Shown: positions 35 to 26,972 of the stretch, one piece after another | How positions within the stretch are numbered: the stretch's first letter is position 1 | How the letters are laid out: every line of letters begins with the position of its first letter | Source: Collimonas fungivorans Ter331 | Lineage (GTDB): Bacteria > Pseudomonadota > Gammaproteobacteria > Burkholderiales > Burkholderiaceae_D | Direction: 5' to 3' | Length of the DNA stretch: 64,000 nt | NCBI RefSeq assembly: GCF_000221045.1 | Contig: NC_015856.1 | Location: 4,697,424-4,761,423, forward strand | Made by a program: the position numbers and the translations under genes | The notes under the pieces: model-generated | Databases searched by the model: none | Seen by the model: only the letters and a program-made list of their open reading frames with translations | Told to the model about the DNA's origin: nothing

Positions 35-110
35 TGGTGGAGGTTGACGGGATCGAACCGACGACCCCCTGCTTGCAAAGCAGGTGCTCTCCCAGCTGAG
101 CTAAACCCCC
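35..110 (-). tRNA. tRNA-Ala (anticodon TGC)
   Basis: The minus strand reads as a complete 76-nt cloverleaf. It begins GGGGGTTTAGCTCAG, has the anticodon loop CTTTGCAAG with anticodon TGC, a GGTTCGATCC T-loop, and an encoded CCA end. It is the distal tRNA in the 16S-23S spacer of an rRNA operon, transcribed towards position 1; the 23S gene should follow outside the window. Confidence 0.97.
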
Positions 111-119
111 GGAAATCTT

Positions 120-196
120 TGGTGGGTCTGGTTGGGCTCGAACCAACGACCCCCGCGTTATCAACACGGTGCTCTAACCAACTGAGCTACAGACCC
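120..196 (-). tRNA. tRNA-Ile (anticodon GAT)
   Basis: A 77-nt cloverleaf on the minus strand begins GGGTCTGTAGCTCAG, has anticodon GAT in the loop TTGATAAC, a GGTTCGAGCC T-loop and an encoded CCA. Order 16S-tRNA-Ile-tRNA-Ala is the usual spacer layout of proteobacterial rRNA operons. Only 9 nt separate the two tRNAs. Confidence 0.97.
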
Positions 197-318
197 GCTT
201 GGATCAGTACGAGCCTACCATCAACTACCATGCATCTCTGCACGACAGCCTTTGACCGATACCTGTTCTTCTTAACTAACAGACGATAAGTGTGGACGCT
301 TAACTTTCATGCAAACTC

Positions 319-1851
<1,533 letters not shown>

Positions 1852-2042
1852 CAATCTCTGTTTTGTGGCATTGCTGCCTAGCATCTCTGCTATCGCTCAC
1901 TCAAAATACTGACAGTTCACTTGTTTAACCAAGCGACCTATTTTCTTCTTTTGTGAACATTTAATGTTTTAAGTTATACGCCACCCATTTACATGAATGA
2001 CGCTGCACTTCCATCAAACGCCCACACTTATCGACTGTTAAT

Positions 2043-13134: not shown

Positions 13135-16100
13135 CTAAGCAGCAATCGAGCGCGCTGCCCCCGCTTTGAGTTCTGGCTCGGGGTGGTTGAACTGATTCAG
13201 CAACTGGGTTTCCTTGGCGCGCGCCGCCGCCAGGTGCCGTTCCTTGACGTGACCGTAACCGCGGATCTCTTCAGGAATGCTGGCGATCGCCACAGCGGCG
13301 GCAAGGTTATCGGCAGTCAACCGCGGCAACAGGGAAGCAACAATTTCCTTGTAGTGTACGATCAGGCCACGCTCTTCCTTGCGCTCAGCCGTATACCCGA
13401 AAACATCCAGGGCCCCGCCGCGCAGGAATTTCAGTTTGGCCAGCAGGCCGAACGCGCGCATCATCCACGGACCGAATTCTTGCTTGATCAGATGGCCGTG
13501 CGCATCGTGCTTGGCCAGCAGCGGCGGCGCCAGATGGAACTTGAGTTTGTAGCCGCCTTCAAACATGCCGGCAATCTTGGCCTTGAAAGCGCCGTCGGTA
13601 TATAAGCGTGCGACTTCATACTCATCCTTGTAAGCCATCAGCTTGAACAGGTAAGTGGCCACCGCGATGCTCAGACGCTGCGCTGCGCGTCCGCTCTCGG
13701 CATGCGGCAACTGCGCTTCGGCGGCCTGCACCTGTTCGACAAATGCGCGGTATTGCTCGGCATAGGCGGCGTCCTGGTAAGAGGTCAGGACAGCGACACG
13801 GCGCTTGACCAGCTCATCCAGATTCGGCGCGCGCTTGAATTCGATCACTTGCGCCGGCGTATCGCTGAGGCGGGTACGTTTTTCCAGCCCGGCCAGATCG
13901 CAAGCCGCGGTGCGGCCCCAGACGAAGGCTTGCTTGTTGAAGGCCACCTGCAAGGCGTTCAATTCAATCGCCCGCATCAGCGATGCTTCTTGCAACGGCA
14001 CCCAGCCCTTTTGCCAGGCATAACCGAGCATGAACATGTTGGTTGCAATGGCGTCGCCCATCAAGGCGGTAGCGATGCGGCCGGCGTCGATGAATTCCAC
14101 GCGGTCGCTGCCGCAAGCTGCACGTATATCCTGCTCTGCCGCGGCATCGGGGAACTGCCAGTCCGGATTCTTGACGAAAGCGGCGGTAGGCGTGCGGGTC
14201 GCGTTGATCGCTGCGTAGGTGCGTCCCTCGCCCATGCGCGACAAGGCGTCGCGGTTGGCGCTGACGATGGCGTCGCAGCCAATCACCAGGTCGGCGTCTC
14301 CGGTGCCGACACGGGTCGAATAGATGTCGTCCGGACGGTCGGCCAGCCGCACATGCGACATCACCGGCCCGCCCTTTTGCGCCAGGCCGCTCATGTCCAG
14401 CACCGAACAGCCTTTGCCTTCGACGTGGGCCGCCATCGCCAGGATCTGGCCGATGGTCACCACGCCGGTGCCGCCGATGCCGGTCACCAGGATGCCGAAC
14501 GGTTTTACCGTGTTCGGCAGCACCGGCGATGGCAAGCTGGCCACCGGCGCCGCAGCTGCGGTTGGCGTCGCGGCTATTTTGGCCGGCTTCTTCAAGCTGC
14601 CGCCTTCGACCGTGACGAAACTCGGACAAAATCCGGTGACGCAGGAAAAATCCTTGTTGCACGACGATTGGTTGATCTGGCGCTTGCGGCCGAATTCGGT
14701 TTCCAGCGGCTCCACCGACAGGCAATTCGACTGCACGCTGCAATCGCCGCAACCTTCACACACGGCCTCATTGATCACGGCGCGTTTGGCCGGATCCGGA
14801 TATTCGTTGCGTTTCCTGCGCCGGCGTTTTTCCGAGGCGCAGGTCTGGTCGTAAATCATGGCCGAGCAGCCTTCGATCTCGCGCAGTTCGCGCTGCACCG
14901 CATCCAGTTCGCTGCGATGGCGAATCGTCACGCCCGGCGCCCAGTCGACGCTCGAACCGTATTTTTCCGGTTCGTCGGTCACCACGATGATCGGCGTCAC
15001 GCCTTCCGCCGCGATCTGCCGTGAAATCATGGCCGGATCGAGCGGGCCGTCGAACGCCTGGCCGCCGGTCATGGCGACCGCATCGTTAAACAGGATCTTG
15101 TAGGTGATGTTGACCTTGGCTGCGACCGAAGCGCGGATCGCCAGCAGGCCGGAGTGGAAATAAGTACCGTCGCCGAGGTTGGCGAACACGTGCTTTTCCG
15201 AGGTAAATGGCGCCTGGCCGACCCAGGTCACGCCTTCGCCGCCCATGTGGGTAAACGTCGACGATTCGCGGTCCATCCACAACACCATGTAGTGGCAGCC
15301 GATGCCGGCCAGGCCGCGGCTGCCGTCCGGCAGTTTGGTCGAGGTATTGTGCGGACAGCCGGAGCAGAAATGCGGGACGCGGTCCTTGTTCGGATCGGGC
15401 TTGCTGCTGATGTTCAGCAGCGCTTCCTTGGCTTCCAGGTAAGCGACCCGCTGCTGTACCCGCTGCGCCACCGGATGGCCCGCGAAGTACTTCGAAATGC
15501 GGGTCGCAATCGCCCTGGCGATCTGCGCCGGATTCAGTTCGTAGGTCGCCGGCAGCAGCCAGTCGCCATGGCCTTCGCCGCTGCGGTTGCTCCACTCGCC
15601 GGTATCGTCGAATTTGCCGACCACGCGCGGCCGCACATCGTCGCGCCAGTTGTACAGTTCTTCCTTGACCTGGTATTCCAGGATCTGGCGTTTTTCTTCC
15701 ACCACCAGGATTTCTTCCAGGCCTTGCGCAAACTCGCGCACGCCTTCCGCTTCCAGCGGCCAGGTCATGCCGATCTTGTACAGGCGGATGCCGATGTCGC
15801 GCGCCACGCTTTCGTCGATGCCGAGGTCGGCCAGCGCCTGGCGCGTGTCGAGATAGGATTTGCCGGCGGTGATGATGCCGATCTTGGCGACCGGGCTGTC
15901 CCAGATGATCTGGTTCAGTTTGTTGACGCGCGCATACGCCAGCGCGGCATACCATTTGTAATTGTTCATCCGCGCTTCCTGCCCCAGCACGGTGTCTGGC
16001 AGGCGGATGTTCAAGCCGTCCGGCGGCAGTTCGAAATCAGTCGGCAAGACAATCTTGACGCGATCCGGATCGAGGTCGACCGAAGCGCCGGACTCGACCA

Positions 16101-16770
16101 GGTCGGTCACGCATTTCATCGATACCCACAGGCCGGTATAGCGGCTCATGGCCCAGCCATGCATGCCGTAATCAAGGTATTCCTGCACCGAGGATGGGTA
16201 CAGCACCGGGATACCGCAGGCTTTCAATATATGTTCGCTTTGGTGGGCGGTAGTCGACGACTTCGCCGCATGGTCGTCGCCGGCCAGCACCAGCACTCCG
16301 CCATGCTGGGAAGTGCCAGCCATGTTGGCATGCTTGAAAACGTCGCCGCAACGGTCGACGCCGGGACCTTTGCCGTACCACAGGCCGAATACGCCGTCGT
16401 ATTGCGCGCCAGGGAACAGGTTGACCTGCTGTGTGCCCCAGACGCTGGTCGCGGCCAGGTCTTCGTTCATGCCGGGGTGGAACTTGACGTGATGCGCGTC
16501 CAGGTATTTTTTTGCCTTGGCCGCGGTCAGGTCGACGCTGCCCAGCGGGGAACCACGATAGCCGGTAACAAAACCGGCGGTGTTCAGACCGGCCAGGACA
16601 TCGCGTTGCCGTTGCAGCATGGGCAGGCGAATAATGGCCTGCGTGCCCGTCATGAAAGCACGGCCACGTTCTAGTGTAAATTTATCATCAAGGGAAATGC
16701 CATCAGCTTCAGACGCTTGCGCCGATTGTGTGGGCAGCAAGGCTTGCGCCGATTTGAGTGGTGCGTTCAT
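13135..16770 (-). CDS. Indolepyruvate:ferredoxin oxidoreductase, fused alpha-gamma type
   Basis: A 1211-aa cytoplasmic enzyme that oxidatively decarboxylates aryl-pyruvates (indolepyruvate, phenylpyruvate) to aryl-acetyl-CoA. Domains in order: an N-terminal pyrimidine-binding domain; a thiamine diphosphate domain with GDGTYFHSG near residue 535; a cysteine-rich ferredoxin-like stretch at about 670-735 (CEGCGDCS, CNKDFSCVTGFC); the gamma domain starting GILVTGIGGTGVVTIGQ near 757; and a C-terminal extension. This single-chain form is common in aerobic betaproteobacteria. GGAG lies 6 nt before the ATG. With phhA and the Lrp regulator next door it fits aromatic amino acid breakdown. Confidence 0.92.
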   Translation of the reverse strand: MNAPLKSAQALLPTQSAQASEADGISLDDKFTLERGRAFMTGTQAIIRLPMLQRQRDVLAGLNTAGFVTGYRGSPLGSVDLTAAKAKKYLDAHHVKFHPGMNEDLAATSVWGTQQVNLFPGAQYDGVFGLWYGKGPGVDRCGDVFKHANMAGTSQHGGVLVLAGDDHAAKSSTTAHQSEHILKACGIPVLYPSSVQEYLDYGMHGWAMSRYTGLWVSMKCVTDLVESGASVDLDPDRVKIVLPTDFELPPDGLNIRLPDTVLGQEARMNNYKWYAALAYARVNKLNQIIWDSPVAKIGIITAGKSYLDTRQALADLGIDESVARDIGIRLYKIGMTWPLEAEGVREFAQGLEEILVVEEKRQILEYQVKEELYNWRDDVRPRVVGKFDDTGEWSNRSGEGHGDWLLPATYELNPAQIARAIATRISKYFAGHPVAQRVQQRVAYLEAKEALLNISSKPDPNKDRVPHFCSGCPHNTSTKLPDGSRGLAGIGCHYMVLWMDRESSTFTHMGGEGVTWVGQAPFTSEKHVFANLGDGTYFHSGLLAIRASVAAKVNITYKILFNDAVAMTGGQAFDGPLDPAMISRQIAAEGVTPIIVVTDEPEKYGSSVDWAPGVTIRHRSELDAVQRELREIEGCSAMIYDQTCASEKRRRRKRNEYPDPAKRAVINEAVCEGCGDCSVQSNCLSVEPLETEFGRKRQINQSSCNKDFSCVTGFCPSFVTVEGGSLKKPAKIAATPTAAAAPVASLPSPVLPNTVKPFGILVTGIGGTGVVTIGQILAMAAHVEGKGCSVLDMSGLAQKGGPVMSHVRLADRPDDIYSTRVGTGDADLVIGCDAIVSANRDALSRMGEGRTYAAINATRTPTAAFVKNPDWQFPDAAAEQDIRAACGSDRVEFIDAGRIATALMGDAIATNMFMLGYAWQKGWVPLQEASLMRAIELNALQVAFNKQAFVWGRTAACDLAGLEKRTRLSDTPAQVIEFKRAPNLDELVKRRVAVLTSYQDAAYAEQYRAFVEQVQAAEAQLPHAESGRAAQRLSIAVATYLFKLMAYKDEYEVARLYTDGAFKAKIAGMFEGGYKLKFHLAPPLLAKHDAHGHLIKQEFGPWMMRAFGLLAKLKFLRGGALDVFGYTAERKEERGLIVHYKEIVASLLPRLTADNLAAAVAIASIPEEIRGYGHVKERHLAAARAKETQLLNQFNHPEPELKAGAARSIAA

Positions 16771-17037
16771 TCAGTCTCCGTGCCAAAAATTATGTTTTTG
16801 ATTGCACTGCGTGGAGGTTATCCTACGCGGTAAAACGTCTTCGCCTTGTGGGCAAATCGTCCTGTTTTTTTACTGCTCATTGCGGCTCCCAGATTATCAC
16901 AAGCGGCTAGTTCCCTCAATGCACGCCGCAACAACTGGATAGAGCAACTGAGCGCGGCGAAATGGGCGTAACAACTGTAACAACTGGTAAATCAAATAGG
17001 AATGGGAATCAACCAGGCGTGTAATGGCACCTTGTCT
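16771..17037. other. Intergenic region upstream of the oxidoreductase gene
   Basis: No gene is seen here. It should carry the promoter of the minus-strand oxidoreductase gene and, if the downstream hairpin element is a plus-strand RNA, that promoter too. A short direct repeat of CAACTG/ACAACTGG occurs between 16930 and 16990. I found no confident -35/-10 pair. Confidence 0.4.
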
Positions 17038-17150
17038 GATGCGGCTGAATACCCTCCCCAGGACCAGCCGCGTCGGGCATTCCTCCCTCTAGTGTTCCCA
17101 TTATCACTAGTTTGCGGATTCTGCTCTCCCCGGCAGAATCCGCTTTTTTA
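17038..17150 (+). ncRNA. Candidate small RNA with three C-rich hairpin loops and intrinsic terminator
   Basis: Three consecutive stems are visible. Hairpin 1 (17038-17074): GATGCGGCTG with CAGCCGCGTC, loop containing CCCTCCCC. Hairpin 2 (17089-17110): CTAGTG with CACTAG, loop TTCCCATTAT. Hairpin 3 (17114-17143): GCGGATTCTGC with GCAGAATCCGC, a perfect 11-bp stem with loop TCTCCCCG, followed by TTTTTTA. The T-run shows the terminator works on the plus strand, yet no plus-strand gene precedes it. Loops rich in UCCC resemble regulators that pair with Shine-Dalgarno sequences. Structure is seen; transcription and function are inferred. It could instead be the 3' tail of phhA read on the other strand. 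Confidence 0.45.
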
Positions 17151-18041
17151 TTTCAGCGCCAGATTGGTTTCACCCGGCAACAACGTGTTTGCCGGCAACG
17201 GCTGCAGCGCCTTCAGGCGCTCGTACATCGGCGTGAAATCCGGCGCCGTGTCGTTGAACAGCTGCTGGAAATCGTCAATCACGAAATAAGTTTCCTGGTA
17301 GGAATCGATCTTGTACAAGGTCCGCATCACGCGTTCGACATCGAACGGCAGCCGCAGCGAGGCCGGGCTGGTCAGGCAATGCTCGATTTCACCGCCCGAC
17401 GACAAGATCCCGGCGCCATATACACGCAAACCCTCAGGACTCTGGATCAGGCCGAATTCGACGGTATACCAGTACAGGCGCGCCAGCATGGCCAGGCCGT
17501 CCAGCTTCATCGCCTTCAGAGCGCCCTTGCCGTACTCTTGCAGATGGTCGGCGAAAATCGGATTGAACAGCAGCGGCACATGGCCGAAAAAGTCATGGAA
17601 CACGTCCGGTTCGACGATGTAGTCGAACTCTTCTGGATCGCGCAGCCAGACCGTGACCGGGAAGCGGCGATTGGCCAGGTGCTCGAAGAAAGTATGGTCC
17701 GGCACCAGGCCCGGCACCGCCACCAAAGTCCAGCCGGTAGCCTTGAACAGCAGGTCTGAACTGTCTACGAAGCGAGGAATGCCGTCGCCGATGTTGAGCA
17801 GTTCCAGGCTTTCGATGAATACGTCGCAAGCCCGCCCCGGGATCAGCTTGGCTTGCCGCTGGTACAGACGGCGCCATAGCGCATGCTGCTCCGGCGTGTA
17901 AGCATCCCAGTCCTGCTTGACCACGTATTGGGCGTCGATCTTGCTGTAATCGCCGCGCAACGCCGCGCCGTCCGATTTTTCGGCGACGGTGGCAAAAAAA
18001 TCGTCGGTATTGACGCCCATGTCCTTTACCTTTGCATCCAT
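17148..18041 (-). CDS. phhA: Phenylalanine 4-monooxygenase
   Basis: A 297-aa iron- and pterin-dependent hydroxylase converting phenylalanine to tyrosine. The iron ligands are the two His of HDFFGHVPLL (about residues 149-158) and the Glu of YWYTVEFGLI. Length fits bacterial PhhA. I start at the ATG giving MDAKVKDMGV, with AGGAAAG 5 nt before it; the frame runs further upstream without support. It is transcribed away from an Lrp-type regulator with a 170-bp shared region. The partner dehydratase phhB is not adjacent. Confidence 0.96.
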   Translation of the reverse strand: MDAKVKDMGVNTDDFFATVAEKSDGAALRGDYSKIDAQYVVKQDWDAYTPEQHALWRRLYQRQAKLIPGRACDVFIESLELLNIGDGIPRFVDSSDLLFKATGWTLVAVPGLVPDHTFFEHLANRRFPVTVWLRDPEEFDYIVEPDVFHDFFGHVPLLFNPIFADHLQEYGKGALKAMKLDGLAMLARLYWYTVEFGLIQSPEGLRVYGAGILSSGGEIEHCLTSPASLRLPFDVERVMRTLYKIDSYQETYFVIDDFQQLFNDTAPDFTPMYERLKALQPLPANTLLPGETNLALK

Positions 18042-18137
18042 TTTTTCTTTCCTGACGAACTTTCTTGAATTAAGCGCTGAATTAAGCACGCCCTGCGCTC
18101 CAATGCCTACAGTATAGGGCCGAGTTAAGGGCAGTTA

Positions 18138-26792: not shown

Positions 26793-26823
26793 CACGCCCT
26801 CCTTTCGTTAGAAAAAAAGTAAC

Positions 26824-26889
26824 GTGAGCGCAGTTGCAAAATGACTGTACCAAGCCTGGCAGACGGTGTCTGTCGCAACGCTCCTTGGA
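26824..26889 (-). promoter_or_regulatory. S-adenosylhomocysteine riboswitch upstream of ahcY
   Basis: On the minus strand the segment begins CCAAGGAGCGTTGCGACAG, contains hairpin CAGAC-ACC-GTCTG, then GCCAGGCTTGG, and ends GCAACTGCGCTC. GAGCG/CGCTC and TTGC/GCAA form the main stem with the bulge typical of the class, and CCAAG/CTTGG can form the pseudoknot. This matches the SAH riboswitch consensus described in beta- and gammaproteobacteria upstream of ahcY operons, an ON switch that raises expression when SAH builds up. It ends about 30 nt before the ahcY start. Confidence 0.92.
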
Positions 26890-26972
26890 TACGATCCACT
26901 ATTTTAAAGCAAACGGCCAGCTTTCGGCTAGCTGAAGCGCTTATTCCGGCTATCCGGCTTGGCGAACAAGCC

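Follow-up and report, generated by a model that had tools for sequence, protein, structure and literature searches.

The window that we analyzed, a 64,000-nt stretch of the Collimonas fungivorans Ter331 genome, contains two neighboring minus-strand genes, one for an indolepyruvate ferredoxin oxidoreductase family protein (IOR; 13135-16770) and one for phenylalanine 4-monooxygenase (phhA; 17148-18089), both assigned by NCBIfam. Between them lies a plus-strand element, relative to which IOR is the divergent and phhA the convergent neighbor. Hairpin 1 of this element (17033-17079) has a 15-bp stem and the loop AATACCCTCCCCAGGAC, which includes CCCTCCCC; a CU-rich linker, TTCCTCCCT (17080-17088), is unpaired in the fold and is the segment for which we propose pairing; hairpin 2 (17089-17110) has a 6-bp stem (CTAGTG/CACTAG) and the loop TTCCCATTAT; and hairpin 3, together with six T, forms an intrinsic terminator (17114-17149). 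An earlier note on this DNA had described three plus-strand hairpins, the third with a perfect 11-bp stem followed by six T, and both the sequence and the fold agree (stem, 17114-17143; loop, TCTCCCCG; T-run, 17144-17149). Its placing of a plus-strand terminator between minus-strand genes is likewise borne out by the terminator scan, which found hairpin 3 on the plus strand, and by the strand of IOR and phhA; terminator-like sites in the region as a whole were no commoner than in shuffled sequences (4 found versus 4.1 expected). The 171-nt region folded at −67.9 kcal/mol; 200 dinucleotide shuffles gave −46.4±3.9 kcal/mol (z = −5.49), and not one of them was as stable. The T-run of the element touches the phhA stop codon (17148-17150) on the opposite strand. 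By eye, phhA has no minus-strand terminator of its own within 160 nt past its stop, so phhA mRNA may run antisense through the putative sRNA gene.

Upstream of the hairpins, a conserved block, GTAACAACTGTAACAACTGGTAAATC, is followed by a weak −35-like hexamer and then by TGTAAT or TTTAAT. On the plus strand of the window, we found three GTAA(C)-type direct repeats (16968-16993, starting at 16968, 16977, and 16987), the −35-like hexamer TAGGAA (16997-17002), assigned from its spacing of 17 nt to the −10 box, and the −10 box TGTAAT itself (17020-17025). The RNA is predicted to start at about 17032 and to be about 118 nt long. The earlier note had placed the element at 17038-17150, and although this location stands, the start does not, because the predicted start is slightly upstream and the promoter reaches back to 16968. 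A promoter scan of the region listed no site at the element, which we attribute to a −35 box too weak for the scan. The repeats are conserved between unconserved flanks in all three genera that carry the putative sRNA (Collimonas, Glaciimonas, and Herbaspirillum), with Herbaspirillum keeping two of them, and all 18 named sRNA loci keep one spacing, of 39 nt from the start of the last repeat to the end of the −10 box. In Herbaspirillum the −10 box reads TTTAAT, and the −35-like hexamer is TTGGAN in most copies. In Herbaspirillum slots, for example L021-L028, the interval from IOR to the sRNA promoter also contains a conserved sequence similar to CAACAATATTTCCGGCTGAAAAAAA.

An Rfam 15 scan of the window at gathering score found no family at the element, in keeping with the earlier view that it is not a known family, and the best match of a permissive search near it, which lay on the opposite strand, scored 15.2 bits where the cut-off is 50. 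The Rfam matches in the window were rRNA, two tRNAs, and an SAH riboswitch (26819-26893, minus strand, 59.1 bits), and nothing else; the two tRNAs and a 16S rRNA gene lie at the window start (38-1852, minus strand). Open reading frames on the plus strand of the element are short or antisense to phhA, and the terminator U-run is the only Hfq-type feature visible in its sequence. The element has, as far as its sequence tells, the own promoter and intrinsic terminator of a stand-alone sRNA and a structure kept by compensatory changes (see below), and its linker is a conserved unpaired CU-rich segment of the kind seen in Shine-Dalgarno-blocking (UCCC-type) RNAs.

When 195 genomes of the family were searched at the DNA level, 27 gave matches, one of them a 25-base match in G063; this match, like a second short one in G116, was left out of the alignment. 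All 25 intact aligned copies lay between IOR and phhA with the orientation unchanged, phhA being ∼1.2 kb further off in L026 and L027. A covariance model (R1) of the 3′ part of 25 copies (linker and hairpins 2 and 3; sRNAs only) had matches at E≤0.001 in 30 of the 190 family genomes searched: 12 in group g1 (Collimonas), 5 in g15 (Glaciimonas), 10 in g27 (Herbaspirillum), 2 in g5, and 1 in g37. Under strict filters, the 399 genomes of the order gave five R1 matches at E≤0.01, two of them the real element. The matches outside the family (G239, G367, and G559; at most 32 bits) were by eye ordinary terminators, as was a second R1 match in the genome of the window. This genome has one copy of the element and a single occurrence of the terminator pattern GCGGATYC..GRATCCGCTTTTT. 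A candidate family of sRNAs in Collimonas, Glaciimonas, and Herbaspirillum, without an entry in Rfam 15, has strong support from comparison among relatives.

The IOR-phhA slot was without repeats or RNA at six loci (L118, L119, L122, L124, L127, and L131), which are Herbaspirillum records plus one MAG named Duganella and which form a branch inside the sRNA-bearing group; the absence of the sRNA from this Herbaspirillum subgroup is probably a secondary loss. A decayed copy, one of the 12 in g1, was present at L020/L077 (G083, a 1.7-Mb genome with a Collimonas code), in which the repeats and linker are recognizable, the terminator stem is broken, and phhA is only 40% identical. Additional DNA of kilobase size occupies the slot at L129 (slot of 2451 nt) and L165 (slot of 3547 nt).

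The covariance check in relatives that the earlier note had proposed revealed compensatory changes in hairpins 1 and 3. In the Collimonas and Glaciimonas alignment used for hairpin 1 (16 sequences, 15 distinct), 99.3% of cells pair, 8 of 28 consensus pairs had changed on both sides with pairing kept (6 of these 8 in the hairpin 1 stem), and none of 500 shuffles reached the observed value on any of five measures. Herbaspirillum has a different hairpin sequence in place of hairpin 1. For the terminator, we used 20 distinct copies from the three genera in an alignment fitted to the model, and 5 of the 11 stem pairs showed changes on both sides; none of 500 shuffles reached the observed covariation score or number of cells with both sides changed, but 43 of 500 reached the count of pairs changed on both sides and 363 of 500 the number of further pair types. 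The hairpin 2 stem was the same in all 20 distinct copies and is therefore silent on covariation, either way.

The unpaired segments differed in how well they were conserved. The hairpin 2 loop changed completely, from UUCCCAUUAU to UUGAAAGCACC, in Herbaspirillum, and the more distant locus L080 lacks a C-rich terminator loop, whereas, of 25 aligned copies, 24 have the linker CCUCCC(C)UCU and the remaining one has CCUCCCCCU. The earlier proposal that the three C-rich loops are the active parts is not supported; the linker (UUCCUCCCUCU), which had not been listed, is the best conserved CU-rich part.

These patterns bear on the possibility that the element is not a regulatory RNA but what remains of a lost gene, its promoter and terminator, serving also as a transcriptional barrier behind phhA. 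Its absence from a Herbaspirillum subgroup and the decayed copy in a 1.7-Mb genome would fit such a remnant. However, a bare terminator needs neither a promoter nor hairpin 1, and for the strand of phhA the element offers a hairpin without a U-run. Because compensatory changes, a kept promoter, and a near-unchanged linker in three genera point to selection on an RNA, we regard a mere remnant or barrier as very improbable.

The earlier note had also remarked that no gene explains the element, which is true of the window and fails in other Oxalobacteraceae, some of which have a gene for a calcium-binding EF-hand protein at the corresponding place. The IOR-phhA slot of G002 and G016 contains, on the same strand, a gene for an EF-hand protein with a signal peptide (Pfam EF-hand), and these loci have both the repeats and a GCGGATTCC terminator. 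Among 80 named loci (none named H. seropedicae), 47 had IOR and could be parsed and 33 were dropped; the 47 slots comprised 18 with the sRNA, 2 with a diverged coding-free RNA (L129 and L139), 5 with an EF-hand gene, and 22 with neither. The repeats were present in 25 of 25 slots with an RNA or EF-hand gene, versus 0 of 22 slots with neither (Fisher p-value of 7e-14, with rows that are non-independent by descent). Since these 22 slots have IOR, the idea that the repeats are part of the IOR promoter was rejected. At the five EF-hand loci, a −10-like hexamer lies, within one base, at the distance seen in the sRNA loci, although it is weaker and more variable in sequence (TTACAT, TTACAG, GTACAG, or TTAGAG). 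In a set of 30 EF-hand loci, 23 of which had a parsable EF-hand frame, the repeats (by a looser pattern) were found within 260 nt upstream in 20 of the 23, and IOR was within the flank in 14 of the 23. A profile of the slot EF-hand proteins found matches (E≤1e-5) in 62 of the 195 family genomes; the genome of the window gave none, either at that threshold or, with a smaller profile, at E≤0.1. EF-hand matches in four other Collimonas genomes (G102, G117, G143, and G175) lie either on a different contig from the sRNA or megabases away from it, and thus not in the IOR-phhA slot.

The distribution of the exact repeat pattern suggests what kind of regulator might act at the slot. In the genome of the window, TGTAACAANNNGTAA occurs exactly at three sites, namely at the element, upstream of a porin gene (Pfam Porin_4, E of 1e-57), and ∼240 nt before a protease-like frame (M4-type by eye), and a second Collimonas genome has the same three exact sites. 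One Glaciimonas and one Herbaspirillum genome each have a single exact site, at the sRNA locus; a g24 genome has two, one of them at an EF-hand gene; and G002 has none, its EF-hand gene carrying GTAACCACAGGTAA. When up to one mismatch was allowed, the genome of the window contained 15 sites versus 17 for a backward control, so only the exact form is informative. The repeats recur every 9-10 bp, and this step, together with the porin target, suggests a regulator of the OmpR/PhoB family. From these sequence features, the GTAA(C)-type repeats are a probable activator site, and the most likely protein to bind the GTAACA repeats would be an OmpR/PhoB-type response regulator that also serves the Collimonas porin promoter. 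A literature search for GTAACA repeats in connection with OmpR found nothing usable. At L039 and L221, in two Collimonas genomes, exact repeats lay beside a divergent secreted-protein frame and ∼240 nt before a frame that by eye is secreted and protease-like.

The 3′ ends of the EF-hand genes provide a second point of comparison. A 3′-UTR origin of the CpxQ type does not apply to the window, in which both neighboring genes are on the other strand; in EF-hand-bearing relatives, the site of the related module is the 3′ end of the EF-hand coding mRNA. Of the 23 parsable EF-hand loci, we examined the 13 with a discernible T-run terminator, and R1 matched 7 of these 3′ ends at E<1. Two g5 3′ ends scored 40 and 39 bits, 79 and 36 nt past the stop codon, each higher than all three R1 matches outside the family; their position behind EF-hand genes overturned the view that these two matches were false positives. 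The 80 named loci contained 130 terminator-like hairpins, 20 of which start with CGGA (with or without a preceding G or A), and 20 of these 20 were in the IOR-phhA slot, at 17 sRNAs, L129, L139, and the EF-hand locus L130. The suspicion that CGGA terminators are generic was thus not borne out in these loci, although such terminators are present elsewhere in the order. Noviherbaspirillum-type EF-hand loci have no terminator of the kind found in the element. CTCC was present in 10 of the 13 3′ ends, versus 4.8 expected in shuffles (P∼0.001), for a motif that was chosen post hoc, that lies in some copies inside terminator stems, and that was counted at L197 in a 3′ end cut short at an early T-run.

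One explanation for these results is that the sRNA is real but resembles the EF-hand locus only in that the slot is tolerant and has one regulated promoter that has driven unrelated genes, with terminators alike by chance or convergence. Such an explanation would account for the lack of a recognized counterpart of hairpin 1 in EF-hand loci, for the weak R1 scores of five of the seven 3′ ends matched, and for the differing terminators of g30, g26, and L203 (that of L196 is GCGGG), and GCGGA-type terminators are also present elsewhere in the order. It fits less well with the agreement of repeats, −10 spacing, strand, and slot all together, with the restriction of CGGA terminators in the 80 loci to this slot, EF-hand locus L130 included, and with two g5 3′ ends that outscore every match outside the family. 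We consider promoter sharing without common descent of the 3′ module rather unlikely, and turn to the order in which an EF-hand gene and an RNA of common origin would have appeared.

In trees built from PhhA and IOR pieces, several inner branches of which are weak, the sRNA genera formed one branch, including the Herbaspirillum subgroup without the RNA, and the coding-free loci L080, L129, and L139 formed a second, next to EF-hand-bearing Noviherbaspirillum-type genomes. EF-hand genes with repeats occurred in several separate branches. A single EF-hand clade was rejected (p-AU of 0.007) and a single clade of all coding-free forms was not (p-AU of 0.31). Counts on the tree alone did not polarize gain versus loss, and would accommodate a history in which the RNA came first and other lineages gained an EF-hand gene by insertion between promoter and 3′ module, as would the 22 of 47 slots with neither RNA nor EF-hand gene. 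However, the separate branches of EF-hand genes with repeats and the outcomes of the two clade tests argue against this order, repeated precise insertion of the same gene being less likely than one or two losses, and we judge insertion improbable. The tree pattern, together with the absence of the EF-hand gene from the genome of the window, favors the EF-hand gene first and the RNA later, the coding part presumably having been lost once or twice. More tentatively, and with some doubt, we suggest that an ancestral mRNA for an envelope EF-hand protein may have carried a CU-rich regulatory 3′ end, much as cpxP does with CpxQ, and that in one or two lineages a coding deletion fused its promoter to the 3′ module, leaving an sRNA of the same regulon.

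We propose the following mechanism. An envelope-sensing regulator of the OmpR/PhoB type at the GTAACA repeats would switch the RNA on, and the RNA of ∼118 nt would be transcribed independently from its own promoter and end at hairpin 3. The linker UUCCUCCCUCU, helped by the C-rich loops, would pair with G-rich Shine-Dalgarno regions and thereby block translation. This RNA would have arisen when the EF-hand coding sequence was lost and the promoter and 3′ module (CU-rich stretch, hairpin 2, and terminator) were kept. Taken as a whole, the reading of the element as an independent trans-acting sRNA that is under OmpR/PhoB-type control, pairs through its linker with Shine-Dalgarno sequences, and was born by loss of EF-hand coding sequence is one that we hold with moderate confidence.

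The search for targets gave leads only. The pattern GAGGGAGG-N3-11-ATG occurred at four sites in the genome of the window (compared with 1 for the control), one of which begins a long frame and is the one plausible start among them. We also ranked duplexes between four CU-rich segments and 51 mechanically chosen ORFs of the window plus a porin; whole-RNA duplex energies were not used because the stems were mostly disrupted. The porin ranked 4 of 52 with the linker, which we treat as a lead at most, and neither the Shine-Dalgarno pattern in the genome nor the duplex search of 52 genes produced a convincing target. The proposal that the element tunes aromatic amino acid catabolism had its position as the sole basis and is not supported: phhA, IOR, and an Lrp-type gene were not outstanding partners (best rank 4 of 52, for IOR with the hairpin 3 loop), and of the 23 loci in which a related EF-hand gene could be parsed, 10 showed no phhA in the stretch examined. 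The locus points instead to the cell envelope.

Surveys of sRNAs exist for H. seropedicae (PMC7011215, PMC6337395), the former listing 117 sRNAs in its Additional file 1. The terms phhA, phenylalanine, and indolepyruvate are absent from the main texts of both. Four published H. seropedicae sRNAs, represented by the oligonucleotides in Table 2 of PMC7011215, had no match to the Herbaspirillum loci examined; two 4-mismatch matches, at L164 and L159, were disregarded. Literature searches on Collimonas sRNAs and on EF-hand genes with a small RNA in Oxalobacteraceae found nothing on the locus.

In our judgement, the origin of stand-alone bacterial sRNAs is an open question for which there are few before-and-after cases in one place, and a narrow literature search on sRNA origin by loss of coding sequence found no such case. 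Here one slot in one family, apparently with one promoter, holds a protein gene, a coding-free RNA, or nothing, which makes the conversion of an mRNA to an sRNA directly testable. The locus may therefore illustrate how loss of the coding part of a protein gene can give rise to an sRNA, and the question that it raises is whether the 3′ end of the EF-hand mRNA already regulates the targets of the sRNA.

Several known systems resemble the element in part. The UCCC-loop sRNAs of Gram-positive bacteria (Listeria LhrC and the Staphylococcus Rsa RNAs) have CU-rich unpaired segments complementary to Shine-Dalgarno sequences, and the element also has CU-rich unpaired segments; however, no sequence relation is seen in Rfam, and the best conserved CU-rich part of the element is a linker and not a loop. 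The AbcR1 and AbcR2 RNAs of alpha-rhizobia are proteobacterial trans-acting sRNAs said to use motifs of the anti-Shine-Dalgarno type, as is proposed here, but they have no Rfam relation to the element and lie in another neighborhood. OmrA, OmrB, and MicF are controlled by OmpR, and the link proposed here between an sRNA and a putative porin-type regulator, by way of direct repeats in tandem, resembles theirs, although their sequences are unrelated to the element. CpxQ of enterobacteria derives from the 3′ UTR of cpxP and is cut from the coding mRNA (PMC9438474). As in the element, its 3′ end is tied to the gene for a small envelope-stress protein and to a response regulator, and its 3′ module is the best conserved part. 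In contrast to CpxQ, the element is without a coding sequence and would start at a promoter, and the two are unrelated in sequence (no Rfam match). In MicX/MalH, the same genomic place gives rise to an RNA from an mRNA 3′ end in one species and to an RNA with its own promoter in another (PMC9438474), much as one place here has a form at an mRNA 3′ end and a form with its own promoter. The two forms of MicX/MalH use two different promoters, whereas in the slot described here the promoter is apparently shared between the EF-hand gene and the sRNA.
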